Assembly: GCA_015485595.1 (NCBI GenBank)
Contig: WFTH01000001.1
Span: 1 to 7,645, forward strand
DNA from: Candidatus Microgenomates bacterium
Lineage (GTDB): Bacteria > Patescibacteriota > Microgenomatia > UBA1400 > PJMF01
DNA length: 7,645 nucleotides
Reading direction: 5' to 3'
Under the pieces are notes generated by a model. It searched no databases, had not been told where the DNA came from, and worked only from the letters and a program-made list of their open reading frames with translations. Made by a program: the position numbers and the translations under genes. Positions 3,718-7,641 of the stretch are shown piece by piece. The first letter of the stretch is position 1. Each line of letters begins with the position of its first letter.

Positions 3718-3746
3718 ATGACAACTGCGCTTAACTTCATTATAAT
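3718..3746 (+). promoter_or_regulatory. korA promoter: ATGACA-17-TATAAT, leaderless
   Basis: ATGACA (3718-3723, 5 of 6 to TTGACA), a 17-nt spacer, then consensus TATAAT (3741-3746) located 7 nt before the ATG at 3754. The predicted start point falls at about 3752-3754, so the transcript has no leader. An upstream in-frame ATG at 3718 is the first three bases of the -35 and would be upstream of the transcript. Confidence 0.75.
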
Positions 3747-3753
3747 AAAGCCA

Positions 3754-5538
3754 ATGTCAACCAAGTGTTCCCAGTTTTCTATCAAGGTAGCCGGACCAGC
3801 CGGCTCAGGTGTGAAAAGCACTGGCCACCTCCTGCAACGCTCTCTCAAACGCCTCTGCTTTTCCACGCTTGGTTACCTAGGCTACCCTTCACTTATTCGC
3901 GGTGGTCAAAACACCTATCAAGTCGACCTCTCTCGAAACAAAGTACTTGCACCCAAGTCTACCACCAACATCCTGTTAGCCCTAAACTTTGACGCTCTAG
4001 AGAAGTACGCTCAAACATTAGCGTCAAACTCACTGGTAATTATTGATGAAACTCAGGTCAAAGATGCCCATGCAGAGACTTTAAGCCAACTGGAAAAAAA
4101 ATATAGTTTCGACATTATCGAGTTATCGGTCAGCCAAACCCTAAACGAAAACCAACTACCCCCCATCGTTCAAAACAGCTTCTTGGTTGGGGCAGTGTTT
4201 GAGCTTCTTAACTACCCTACTCAACCTGTTATACATCTTTTAAAAGAGATGTTTGAAAGAAAGGGTCAGGTAGTAGTCAAGGCTAACGTCCAAGCGGTTA
4301 AACTTGGAACTAAAGCGGCTCAAAGGTTTAAAAAAAACCTAAACCCCAAACTTAAAGCTGGAGTTGATCTTTCCCCCGTTTGTCCTACTGGCAAAGCCAA
4401 GGTAGAAACCGTGGTGGTTACCGGCAACGACACTATTGCCATGGGTTTTATAAAAGCCGGTGGTCAGTTTTACAGTGCCTACCCAATGACACCATCAAGC
4501 AACATCTTGCATTTTTTAGAAAAACATGGGAAGAAGCATGGCTTGGTCGTGCGTCAGGCCTCAAACGAGATCGAGGCGGTTGGGGCTGCTATTGGCGCCA
4601 GCTACGCTGGCGCCCGTTCAATGGTAGCTACCTCTGGAGGTGGACTGGATCTTATGAGTGAGTTTATCTCCATGGCCGCTACCACCGAAACTCCGATCGT
4701 GGTCGTAAACGCCCAACGGACCGGCTCTGGCACCGGCCTACCTACCTGGACCGAGCAAGCTGATCTTAATATGGCTAAACATACCGGCCACGGTGAGTTT
4801 CCTAGGGTAGTAATCGCCCCTGGCACCCCACTAGAAGCTTATAAACTCACTCAAGAGGCTCTTAACCTAGCCGATAAATACCAGATTCCAGTCATCCTCC
4901 TATCTGACAAGTACTTAAGCGAAAGTGTCTTTACCCTAACCGCTCGTAAAATAAACCACGTTAACCTCCCAATAGACCGAGGTCAACTCATCACTACAGA
5001 TACCCCAGAGGGGTATCTAAGATACAAGCTGACTAACAATGGTGTTAGCCCAAGAACCATTCCCGGAGTCAAAGGTGGTCTGCATGTGGCCAACAGTGAC
5101 GATCATGATGAGTATGGCAACTCGATTGAGTCTGATAAGATGAGAGTAAAGATGCAGACAAAGAGGTTAAAAAAGCTTGAAACTTTAAAGAAAAAACTAC
5201 CACTGCCGCAAGTTTTAGGTAGCAAGCAAGCTAAGGTAGCCTTGGTGGGTTGGGGTAGCACCAAAGGTGTGTTAGAAGCAGTAGCAGAGAGGTTGTCTAC
5301 GCCCACGGCCGTGGTTCACTTTACTTACCTCTATCCACTTGATCATGAACGGCTGACTCAAGTGTTTGAGCCGTTTGAAAAAGTAGTCTTGGTGGAGAAT
5401 AACAGTACCGGCCAACTCAAAGAAGATCTTATACTAGCTGGAGCTAACCTAACCCAGATGATCTTAAAGTTTGATGGCGAACCGTTCTTTGTGGACGAGT
5501 TGCTGGCAGAAGTGGAAGATGTTATTAATAATGCATGA
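3754..5538 (+). CDS. korA: 2-oxoacid:ferredoxin oxidoreductase, fused gamma-alpha subunit
   Basis: With KorB it catalyses CoA-dependent oxidative decarboxylation of a 2-oxoacid, passing electrons to ferredoxin, and the reaction can run in reverse. It is cytosolic. Residues (594 in all) 8-190 are the gamma domain, starting with FSIKVAGPAGSGVKSTG and continuing YLGYPSLIRGGQNTYQV (41-57). The alpha pyrimidine-binding domain starts near 220 (TGNDTIAMGFIKAGG) and holds YPMTPSS (243-249, the substrate/CoA Thr), ASNEIEAVGAAIGASYAGAR (269-288), ATSGGGLDLMSE (292-303) and TGLPTWTEQADL (327-338). GHGEFPRVVIAPG (345-357) and LADKYQIPVILLSDKYLSES (372-391) follow. The C-terminal domain II is at about 490-594 (VALVGWGSTKG). 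Family length is about 570-600 aa. The frame extends to an ATG at 3718, but that lies in the -35, so 3754 is preferred. The stop is TGA. Exact substrate (2-oxoglutarate, pyruvate or other) cannot be read from sequence. A 204-bp spacer separates it from the next gene, and korB is two genes further on. Confidence 0.93.
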   Translation: MSTKCSQFSIKVAGPAGSGVKSTGHLLQRSLKRLCFSTLGYLGYPSLIRGGQNTYQVDLSRNKVLAPKSTTNILLALNFDALEKYAQTLASNSLVIIDETQVKDAHAETLSQLEKKYSFDIIELSVSQTLNENQLPPIVQNSFLVGAVFELLNYPTQPVIHLLKEMFERKGQVVVKANVQAVKLGTKAAQRFKKNLNPKLKAGVDLSPVCPTGKAKVETVVVTGNDTIAMGFIKAGGQFYSAYPMTPSSNILHFLEKHGKKHGLVVRQASNEIEAVGAAIGASYAGARSMVATSGGGLDLMSEFISMAATTETPIVVVNAQRTGSGTGLPTWTEQADLNMAKHTGHGEFPRVVIAPGTPLEAYKLTQEALNLADKYQIPVILLSDKYLSESVFTLTARKINHVNLPIDRGQLITTDTPEGYLRYKLTNNGVSPRTIPGVKGGLHVANSDDHDEYGNSIESDKMRVKMQTKRLKKLETLKKKLPLPQVLGSKQAKVALVGWGSTKGVLEAVAERLSTPTAVVHFTYLYPLDHERLTQVFEPFEKVVLVENNSTGQLKEDLILAGANLTQMILKFDGEPFFVDELLAEVEDVINNA

Positions 5539-5542
5539 TACA

Positions 5543-5570
5543 TTAATGATTAGTAATTAGTAATTGAGTG
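5543..5570. repeat. Degenerate heptamer tandem repeat, spacer copy 4
   Basis: Units on the + strand: TTAATGA, TTAGTAA, TTAGTAA, TTGAGTG, the middle two identical. It starts 4 nt after the korA stop and opens the 204-bp spacer. Confidence 0.65.
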
Positions 5571-5572
5571 TT

Positions 5573-5599
5573 GTCGTCCTGAACTTGTTTCAGGATCTC
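5573..5599. repeat. Palindromic intergenic repeat (TCCTGAA/TTCAGGA)
   Basis: TCCTGAA (5577-5583), loop CTTGT, TTCAGGA (5589-5595): a perfect 7-bp hairpin with flanks GTCG and TCTC. From memory, nearly the same sequence recurs between genes in many unrelated bacterial genomes as a short dispersed palindrome. It has no U-tract after the stem, so it is not a standard intrinsic terminator, though it could protect the korA 3' end. Confidence 0.6.
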
Positions 5600-5607
5600 A
5601 ATAACAT

Positions 5608-5697
5608 GAGTAGAAAGTAAGATGTAAGTTAGTATGAAATCAGAAGTTTAAAGATTGAAGATTTTTCTTTTTACTTCCTACATTCTACTTTTTACTC
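5608..5697. repeat. Imperfect long inverted repeat made of heptamer arrays
   Basis: The left arm (5608-5631) is made of TAGAAAG, TAAGATG, TAAGTTA units after GAG. The right arm (5671-5697), read on the minus strand, is GAG followed by TAAAAAG, TAGAATG, TAGGAAG. The arms match at most positions over roughly 20-25 nt, enclosing an AT-rich centre (5632-5670). On the minus strand the array continues to about 5715. It could fold as a long bulged hairpin in RNA or be a miniature repeat element. Together with the two elements to its left it fills nearly the whole korA-to-next-gene spacer, where I see no convincing promoter. Confidence 0.5.
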
Positions 5698-5742
5698 AAC
5701 TCACTACCTACTACATAGTAAACAGTTTTAAGTTTAAAAACC

Positions 5743-6093
5743 ATGCAGATTACCTATCATAAAAACTTAACAGTTGATAAATGGAGCAGTCTTAGCCTGA
5801 CAGAGCAACTAGCCAACATCGGCGCAGAGATCAAGCGAGCTTTGTTTTGGCAAGAAAGAAAAAAGCCAAATTTGGCTAAAAGCGCACTTTATCGTGCACT
5901 GGAGCTTTTTGACCTAACGCTTGCAAGTTTAAAAAGCTACCCTGCTTTAAAAGAAGTCGCTCGCACCAGAGAAGTTGTAGTAGATTATTTTGTGGGAGAT
6001 AATCAGTACCAGTCAACACCAAACAACCTTAATCGGTACTTTTATCACTTTAATTTACTGGTTAACTACAGGAAGTATGAAACTAATAAATAA
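5743..6093 (+). CDS. Small unknown protein paired with DUF5674
   Basis: A 116-aa protein of unknown function. It has no signal peptide or membrane segment and looks largely helical. Recognisable blocks are WSSLSLTEQLANIGAEIKRA (14-33), ALYRALELFDLTLAS (48-62), LKEVARTREVVVDYFVGDNQ (69-88) and NRYFYHFNLLVNYR (97-110). From memory, proteins with this block order (LSLxEQLxNIGxEI ... RALELxDLT ... REVxxDxFxGxN) occur next to DUF5674 genes in several poorly characterised phyla. That pairing is recollection, not a search. A four-helix bundle is a plausible inference. The ATG at 5743 has neither a Shine-Dalgarno nor a clear -10. It may be read from the korA transcript, or from a weak promoter in the AT-rich stretch before it. 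It overlaps the next gene by 17 bp. Sampled base composition is lower in GC than korA and korB. Confidence 0.75.
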   Translation: MQITYHKNLTVDKWSSLSLTEQLANIGAEIKRALFWQERKKPNLAKSALYRALELFDLTLASLKSYPALKEVARTREVVVDYFVGDNQYQSTPNNLNRYFYHFNLLVNYRKYETNK

Positions 6094-6427
6094 ACCAATC
6101 ACCATCAACGAGCTTAAAAGCATCGCCTCTTCTCTTTTTAAAGATGTCACAAAAGCCGTGGTGGATGTAGAAAAAGAGATCATGGTAGTTAACGCTGAAC
6201 TTCACTCAGATCAAGAGTCTTGGCTTCTGAAACGTGGATCTAAGCAATCTGACCTTTGGGGAATTAATCTTTATCCAGACTTATTTGGCAATGAAGACTT
6301 TATAGAGTTTGACTCAATGATAAACTTAAGACCGGGACAAGGAAACCCCACCAGGGGCGTTGAAAATAAAAACACCAGAGAAAAAATAAAAAAGATTGTC
6401 TATAAACTAATTAAACCAAGCAACTAG
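6077..6427 (+). CDS. DUF5674 family protein
   Basis: A 116-aa protein matching the DUF5674 pattern end to end: MKLINKPITINELKSIA (1-17), KAVVDVEKEIMVVNAELHSD (26-45), GSKQSDLWGINLYP (54-67), DFIEFDSMINLRPGQGNPTR (74-93) and a C-terminal helix REKIKKIVYKLI (101-112). No function is established for the family. The conserved polar residues (Asp30, Glu41-His43-Asp45, Asp59, Glu77, Asp79, Arg85, Arg93) look like a binding or catalytic surface, but that is inference. The frame is open back to an ATG at 5990. The start at 6077 is chosen because the family begins at this Met-hydrophobic strand, and an AGGAAG sits just before it, though with only 1 nt spacing. The start lies inside the upstream gene, so translation is probably coupled to it. 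korB follows 3 nt after the stop, so the three genes are almost certainly co-transcribed. Confidence 0.85.
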   Translation: MKLINKPITINELKSIASSLFKDVTKAVVDVEKEIMVVNAELHSDQESWLLKRGSKQSDLWGINLYPDLFGNEDFIEFDSMINLRPGQGNPTRGVENKNTREKIKKIVYKLIKPSN

Positions 6428-6430
6428 TTT

Positions 6431-7306
6431 ATGCAAAAACAATCAGTAAATAAACCAAAATCAACCGACTACCACTCAGAGATCAAACCTACCTGGTGTC
6501 CTGGCTGTGGTGACTGGACCATCGGTTTTGGCCTCATGCAAGCCTTAGCTGACCTGGGCTACGAACCACACCAAGTGGCCTTAGTCTACGACATTGGCTG
6601 CACGGGTAACGGAGCGGACAAGATTAAAGCCTACACCTTTAAGAGTCTTCATGGTCGGGCGGTTATCACTGCCGTTGGTATTAAGTACGCTAACCATAAC
6701 CTGCCCGTAATCACCATGATTGGTGATGGTGGCATGTACTGGGAAGGCGCGGCTCACTGGATCACCAGCGCCCAAAGAAACGAGGATGTAACCGTGTTTG
6801 TGGCTGACAACCAGATCTACGGCTTAACCACCGGTCAGACCTCACCTACTACCGAGGTTGGCTGTAAGACCAAGACTCAACCAGAGGGCACCCTAGATGA
6901 GCCGGTCAACCCAATCGCCACCTCGATTGCTGCAGGAGCTACCTTTGTGGCTCGCGCCTGGGTGGGAGATCCACTTCATATGCAAAAAATGATGAAAGCA
7001 GCTATTAGCCATAAAGGCTTTGCCATCGTAGACATCTTGCAGACCTGCGTTACCTTCAACCAAGTTAACACTCTGGAGTACTACCGTGAGCGGGTTTATA
7101 AACTAGAAGAAACCGAGCACGATCCCACCAGTAAAATCCAAGCCTATCAAAAAGCTGAAGAAACGGGAAAAACTCCCCTGGGAATCTTTTACCAAATTAA
7201 TAAAGCCACTATATCCGATAAATATTTACCTTTAAAATCAAGAATGCCCCTCTTTGCTCAAAAACCAAAAACCAACATTAAACCATTACTTAAGTTATTT
7301 CAATAA
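6431..7306 (+). CDS. korB: 2-oxoacid:ferredoxin oxidoreductase, beta subunit (TPP, [4Fe-4S])
   Basis: A 291-aa beta subunit, a normal length for the two-subunit (KorAB/OorAB) class. KPTWCPGCG (19-27) supplies Cys23 and Cys26. Cys57 in DIGCTG and Cys206 in DILQTC complete the four ligands expected for the single [4Fe-4S] cluster. The thiamine-diphosphate site is GDG (98-100) with DNQIYGLTTGQTSPTT (126-141) carrying the Mg-binding Asn127. KSLHGRAVITAVGIKYAN (71-88) is also typical. The segment after GDG is GMYWEGAAHW, where many family members have a GGNH, a modest departure. An additional Cys145 is present. Electrons leave to an external ferredoxin, not encoded here. The gene starts 3 nt after the DUF5674 stop with no Shine-Dalgarno, so translation probably relies on coupling or reinitiation. 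Its TAA stop lies in the A-tract of the terminator hairpin. The unusual point is its separation from korA by two unrelated genes. Confidence 0.95.
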   Translation: MQKQSVNKPKSTDYHSEIKPTWCPGCGDWTIGFGLMQALADLGYEPHQVALVYDIGCTGNGADKIKAYTFKSLHGRAVITAVGIKYANHNLPVITMIGDGGMYWEGAAHWITSAQRNEDVTVFVADNQIYGLTTGQTSPTTEVGCKTKTQPEGTLDEPVNPIATSIAAGATFVARAWVGDPLHMQKMMKAAISHKGFAIVDILQTCVTFNQVNTLEYYRERVYKLEETEHDPTSKIQAYQKAEETGKTPLGIFYQINKATISDKYLPLKSRMPLFAQKPKTNIKPLLKLFQ

Positions 7307-7358: not shown

Positions 7359-7613
7359 CTAGTCGTGCTCTTCAAACTTACGATCAAACTCTGGATCGTG
7401 TTTTCTAAGGTACTCGATCAGCATGGCCGCATGCTCTTTTTCTTCGTCACGATTGTGAGCTAACACCCGCTTAAGATCCTCGTCATCTGTAGCTTGAATT
7501 CTTTCTTCATAAACCGTAACCGCATCAAGTTCTTCAATCAAAGACTGGCGTGCTCGAGCTAAATCTTTAGCCTTTTCGTCCAGATGTTGAGTATCGTTTA
7601 AGTTGTAACTCAT
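7359..7613 (-). CDS. Encapsulated-ferritin-like (EncFtn family) ferroxidase, stand-alone
   Basis: Numbering here starts at the ATG at 7613 (84 aa). The block SLIEELDAVTVYEERIQA (24-41), then LKRVLAHNRDEEKEHAAML (47-65) and RKHDPEFDRKF (70-80), closely parallels the Rhodospirillum rubrum encapsulated ferritin. By that alignment Glu28, Glu58 and His61 correspond to its ferroxidase ligands Glu32, Glu62 and His65, and Tyr35 to Tyr39, while Trp38 is replaced by Val34. EncFtn subunits are two-helix proteins that assemble into a ring of dimers, bind iron between subunits and oxidise Fe(II). In other bacteria they deliver it to an encapsulin shell. Here the protein ends at EEHD with no C-terminal encapsulin-targeting peptide, and a terminator lies directly downstream, so no encapsulin gene follows in the operon. 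The start is the ATG at 7613, because AGGAGG sits 5 nt before it and the in-frame GTG at 7619 overlaps that AGGAGG. A rubrerythrin-like role is the main alternative. Confidence 0.87.
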   Translation of the reverse strand: MSYNLNDTQHLDEKAKDLARARQSLIEELDAVTVYEERIQATDDEDLKRVLAHNRDEEKEHAAMLIEYLRKHDPEFDRKFEEHD

Positions 7614-7618
7614 AAACA

Positions 7619-7641
7619 CCTCCTTTTTTTAAACTATTTTA
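7619..7641 (-). promoter_or_regulatory. -10 box and strong Shine-Dalgarno of ferritin-like gene
   Basis: On the minus strand, AGGAGG occupies 7624-7619, five nt (TGTTT) before the ATG at 7613. A TAAAAT at 7641-7636 is a plausible -10, with a start near 7629 and a leader of about 16 nt. The -35 would lie past the window edge. This is the only gene here with a full Shine-Dalgarno. Confidence 0.65.

Follow-up and report, generated by a model that had tools for sequence, protein, structure and literature searches.

The DNA analysed here, hereafter the window, is contig WFTH01000001.1 (7,645 bases) from a Candidatus Microgenomates bacterium whose 688-kb genome is distributed over 102 contigs. It carries two small genes, termed U and D, the latter encoding a DUF5674 protein, and these lie between korA and korB on the same strand (in the order korA, a 204-bp spacer, U, D, and korB). 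A sequence-only reading of this DNA had described two proteins of 116 amino acids (aa) each, a 17-bp overlap of their genes, and a distance of 3 bp between D and the ATG of korB (6431), and all of these coordinates are correct. The pair comprises the following features:

5743 to 6093, forward strand: U, a 116-aa uncharacterised protein of the U1 class, partner of DUF5674 (607 homologues at E ≤ 0.001)
6077 (ATG) to 6427 (stop), forward strand: D, a DUF5674 protein of 116 aa (PF18924, E 6.4e-32)
6077 to 6093, forward strand: 17-bp overlap of U and D
6070 to 6075, forward strand: AGGAAG, a Shine-Dalgarno-like motif read from the sequence, within the coding region of U and unusually near the ATG of D

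The D and U families form one two-gene module. This was first apparent from a set of named loci, i.e., the best 80 of 254 D relatives, which is biased toward D proteins resembling that of the window and overlaps in part with the numbered genomes considered below; gene starts were picked by script as the nearest ATG. A U1 gene was located downstream of D on the same strand in 80/80 named loci. The gap between both genes ranged from −17 to +15 bp in 78 loci, with two exceptions at 66 bp (L049) and 883 bp (L080), and the genes overlapped in 60 loci, 47 of which had a gap of −4 bp. According to their titles, the loci originate from Patescibacteria, Omnitrophota, Acidobacteria, Bacteroidetes, Dependentiae, a Rhabdochlamydiaceae bacterium, and others.

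A survey of 379 Patescibacteria genomes detected D in 96 of them, with 100 rows, and U1 in 78, with 84 rows. The 100 D rows correspond to 99 places, as one broken D yields two rows. U1 adjoined D in 68 of these rows (67 places), 67 times in the order D then U and once in the order U then D; the latter is the window, the sole pair seen with this arrangement. All 29 newly fetched loci from the other 32 D rows showed a small downstream open reading frame (ORF) at −14 to +71 bp, and 28 of these ORFs matched a U profile at an E-value of 0.01 or better (L224 at 0.022). The remaining three (L016, L017, and L020) also have a small U-type ORF downstream. The count of co-occurrence that had been proposed on the basis of the sequence alone therefore supports the pairing: small, co-oriented genes, overlapping or tightly spaced apart from a few wider gaps, are kept together across taxa in the manner of toxin-antitoxin genes, i.e., in 80/80 named loci and beside 100/100 D rows of the phylum.

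Similar results were obtained for other sources. In 89 related genomes, 37 D rows comprised 10 beside U1, 26 beside a U2-type ORF, and one with damage to both genes (L171). The diverged D genes of relatives (type B, L016–L035) were followed by a protein of 75–100 aa in 20/20 cases. Regarding cyanobacterial plasmids, DUF5674 occurred in 27 records, 14 of which were called conjugative, and an ORF of 116–124 aa directly followed D in 12/12 regions viewed (partner sequences were compared for ten of them). Distances between D proteins correlated with those between their U1 partners (rho = 0.58 over 83 loci, compared to at most 0.23 in 999 permutations; five of 88 rows were dropped as duplicates or due to a U cut by the contig end), which is expected for genes inherited as a unit.

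U matched no Pfam or NCBIfam family at E-values up to 1, and a comparison to PADLOC gave one chance-level match only (E 0.015). Three-dimensional modelling of the partners covered U1, for which a four-helix bundle was predicted (predicted local distance difference test score, pLDDT, of 92). In an alignment of 67 U1 sequences, the residues W14, Q22, G27, R32, R51, L55, E71, R74, E77, and Y99 were invariant. Three partner subclasses could be distinguished, namely U1 (the window), U2 (type B), and U3 (plasmids), and a pattern like L-x-x-[DE]-[LV]-x-R, read by eye, is found near the start of all three, more weakly in U3. Hhalign probabilities among U1, U2, and U3 were low (13%, 1%, and 5%). U1–U2 narrowly exceeded 100/100 shuffles (20.8 vs. 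at most 20.6) and U2–U3 also exceeded 100/100, whereas U1–U3 failed, with 28/100 shuffles scoring as good. The L217 protein matched all three U profiles (E 1.5e-4, 3e-4, and 2e-7, with about 35 proteins searched), and L217 and L234 look like intermediates among the subclasses. U1, U2, and U3 are likely related, forming one family in three subclasses.

D was clearly assigned to DUF5674 (PF18924), with 110.3 bits compared to a cut-off of 27. The family is highly abundant, as at least 7,988 homologues passed the threshold among the best 8,000 candidates scored. With respect to other families, Pfam yielded DUF5674 only, NCBIfam one chance-level match (E 0.13), and PADLOC no credible match. The predicted structure is an alpha/beta fold (pLDDT 96), and enzyme-like residues, i.e., K26, D30, H43, E47, and N83, are conserved at 98–100% in 172 distinct sequences. 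The best structural match was the phosphohistidine phosphatase PHPT1; this match was weak, and the sequence statistics were marginal. Hmmscan gave no match to PF05005, neither for D of the window nor for 54 family members at E-values up to 10.

The distribution of the pair is patchy, as only 35 of the 89 related genomes contain D and 12 contain U1. Genes next to the pair are largely unrelated to each other: among 152 neighbour genes of the 80 named loci, the largest homologous group had three members, and the Pfam families were diverse among the 137 neighbours covered by the Pfam and PADLOC scans. A mobile-element gene common to the immediate neighbours of the 80 loci was not found. The sequence-only reading had suggested a mobile two-component module. 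What holds of this suggestion is the constant association of D with a U-type partner, unless D is damaged, at unrelated sites; repeats that would flank or carry the module found no support. Based on the distribution and genomic context, the module probably moves horizontally.

Loss of the two genes is asymmetric. An intact D without a U-type partner was not found in any of the sets examined (80 loci, 379 Patescibacteria genomes, 89 relatives, and the plasmids viewed). U1 without a neighbouring D was present at 16 loci in the 379-genome phylum sample, and three genomes (G259, G377, and G434) contain a solitary U1 plus a D–U1 pair elsewhere. The U gene is itself interrupted in L240, and a D remnant adjoins it in L248. 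In the remaining 14 loci, U1 is open across most of the profile and the neighbours vary; in L245 and L246, the start of U1 coincides with the extreme end of an apparent gyrB gene. Such a candidate toxin that is not found intact alone, combined with a partner that may be solitary, is what a toxin-antitoxin pair would show. In six loci, D is interrupted or degenerate and its partner open (L068, L012, L256, L028, the plasmid locus L161, and L040, where D was seen only as a short remnant read by eye), although stops in D could be sequencing errors. The reverse, a broken U next to an intact D, was not seen, and this asymmetry of six to zero corresponds to p = 0.016 (one-sided sign test). Damage affects both D and U in L171 and L257, and only a U fragment is present in L047. 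A stop was flagged in 15 U rows. Seven of them, all paired, proved open upon retrieval (L249–L255), five other paired ones have open frames of 108–111 aa, and three are solitary U genes. As a separate observation, L119 carries fragments of further U1 genes (6640–6693 and 9267–9392) near an intact D–U pair.

We consider it most likely, with a probability of roughly 45%, that the pair is a horizontally moving two-gene module in which D and U act like toxin and antitoxin; the asymmetric loss favours toxin-antitoxin action. In this scenario, the module would have been inserted into the korA–korB junction of this genome. The low GC content of the pair and the intact korA–korB junctions of the relatives also speak for this reading. 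D may be a harmful enzyme with a phosphate-handling pocket like that of phosphohistidine phosphatase, formed by H43, S80–M81, and perhaps K26; the predicted helical bundle of U would bind and restrain it, and D without U would be harmful. In the usual order, with D first and the start of U overlapping the stop of D, synthesis of U would be held at a fixed ratio to that of D. The window order, U then D with a 17-bp overlap, would retain the coupling, with U made first. The D tree mixes phyla, but many of its forks are unresolved and it gives no proof of transfer. Furthermore, the loss asymmetry is also expected for an enzyme that needs U.

The latter point leads to the main rival, i.e., that D is a non-toxic accessory enzyme and U its obligate subunit or activator, both spread horizontally because their activity is useful, e.g., in dephosphorylating a metabolite or protein. 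Solitary U genes would then reflect a further role of U itself. This explanation is consistent with both proteins being strongly conserved, with the failure to match toxin families, with the presence of mostly one copy per genome, and with the enzyme-like conserved residues of D, and we regard it as quite possible. However, the patchy presence in related genomes, the occurrence on plasmids, and the repeated decay of D beside an open U argue against it. The toxin-antitoxin-like reading could, at its widest, mean that candidate phyla and cyanobacterial plasmids host a large undescribed class of mobile conflict modules, each made up of a DUF5674 gene and that of its helical partner. Their toxin, a phosphatase of PHPT1 fold, would attack a phosphorylated cell component, the partner would have split into several specificity classes, and solitary antitoxins would be kept as immunity genes; we consider this extension rather unlikely.

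The pair might also simply be carried along by a larger element such as a phage, plasmid, or transposon, in which case no function would be tied to the pairing. One D–U pair is indeed located on an IMG/VR contig (L158), where the region at about 3800–3975, upstream of the pair, presumably represents the C-terminal part of a tyrosine recombinase, and D copies reside on the cyanobacterial plasmids. However, D keeps a U partner in widely differing contexts and whichever partner subclass is involved, and the immediate neighbours of the 80 loci share no mobile-element gene, which renders this explanation improbable.

Regarding the surroundings of the pair, the following features lie upstream and downstream:

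3754 to 5538, forward strand: korA, 2-oxoacid:acceptor oxidoreductase alpha subunit, upstream neighbour outside the module (TIGR03710, E 3.2e-169)
6431 to 7306, forward strand: korB, 2-oxoacid:acceptor oxidoreductase beta subunit, downstream neighbour outside the module (TIGR02177, E 4.2e-90)
5539 to 5742, no strand assigned: spacer between korA and U with short internal repeats, GC content of 28.4%
5571 to 5703, forward strand: dispersed intergenic element with a palindrome core at 5578–5596 and matches in contigs C43, C83, and C11 of the same genome

The korA product is an alpha subunit of the KorA/OAFO type and the korB product a beta subunit of the KorB/PorB type; the korA ORF may begin at 3718. 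The GC content of the U–D pair was 38.1%, compared to 46.7% for korA and 46.9% for korB, so that the lower value noted for the pair relative to korB is borne out over whole genes. GC at third codon positions (GC3) was 37.6% in both U and D, 46.6% in korA, and 49.7% in korB. Short internal repeats are indeed present in the spacer; the description of the pair as repeat-flanked was wrong, since they occur solely upstream of it. The palindromic core CCTGAACTTGTTTCAGGAT (5578–5596) has eight copies in its own genome at ≤ 2 mismatches, including that of the window, compared to none for a control pattern. The repeats represent dispersed intergenic elements of this genome and occur on one side only, so we rejected them as carriers of the module. 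Two further genes of the window lie on the reverse strand, i.e., a gene at 883–1671 resembling F420-0:gamma-glutamyl ligase, in a very small genome, whose best model is a putative folate gamma-glutamate ligase with a score under the curated cut-off, and a short EncFtn-like gene (encapsulated ferritin type) at 7359–7619, just past korB on the opposite strand.

A korB match was obtained in 51 of the 89 related genomes, the own genome included. In 29/29 loci retrieved from other genomes, korA directly precedes korB, i.e., the uninterrupted junction sought in relatives exists. Since their korA–korB gap ranges from −48 to 290 bp (extrapolated), compared to 896 bp in the window, these loci have no room for the pair. 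Conversely, 79/80 named D–U loci lack a kor match within flanks of up to 5 kb, leaving a weak 58-bit korA match in L063 as the single case, so that the conserved linkage expected of a Kor accessory subunit is absent from both sides. In three other genomes (L048, L049, and L051), the D–U pair is found between gatC-like and amidase-like genes, as assigned from neighbour homologous groups plus Pfam family counts, which indicates that kor is not the only apparent subunit operon to harbour such a pair. The kor link of the pair looks accidental, and a role as accessory or regulatory unit of the 2-oxoacid:ferredoxin oxidoreductase, which the sequence-only reading had offered as an alternative and to which the position between korA and korB, 3 bp from korB and probably co-transcribed, would fit, is largely contradicted and highly improbable.

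Genes within a metabolic operon of a small genome hence need not serve that operon. The regular occurrence of DUF5674 in a two-gene unit, together with a member of a defined partner family, makes an orphan domain a testable system, and the results suggest that Patescibacteria and other phyla with few cultured members carry a mobile module for conflict or stress. Cyanobacterial plasmids (Nostoc and Trichormus) could serve as sources of D–U pairs for laboratory tests.

Type II toxin-antitoxin modules include toxin-first pairs such as higBA and hicAB. D–U resembles these in its two small, adjacent, and usually overlapping genes, its patchy distribution among unrelated neighbours, and the fact that one partner (D) was not found intact alone and the other (U) has solitary copies. 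It differs in lacking homology to known toxin or antitoxin families in Pfam, NCBIfam, and PADLOC, which is not required of a new family, in the lack of a DNA-binding domain among the features seen, and in the unusually strong conservation of D and U; D is a putative toxin. HEPN/MNT modules consist of a small helical-bundle protein beside a second small protein, and the predicted helical bundle of U likewise adjoins D. However, U1 has no conserved R-x4-6-H motif, H6 being its only highly conserved histidine, and D gave no nucleotidyltransferase profile match in the Pfam scan. PHPT1 and the Janus/Ocnus family (PF05005) differ from D in that D escapes the PF05005 profile and the profile comparison was marginal. 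K21 of PHPT1 aligns with K26 of D only by eye, as the profile alignment is offset there, R78 of PHPT1 has no obvious counterpart in D, and D, unlike PHPT1, is found with a U partner. D of the window is a clear member of DUF5674 itself. The Pfam description of this family gives no function, and no paper was found under either DUF5674 or PF18924 in the open-licence literature searched; what the present analysis adds is its constant partner.
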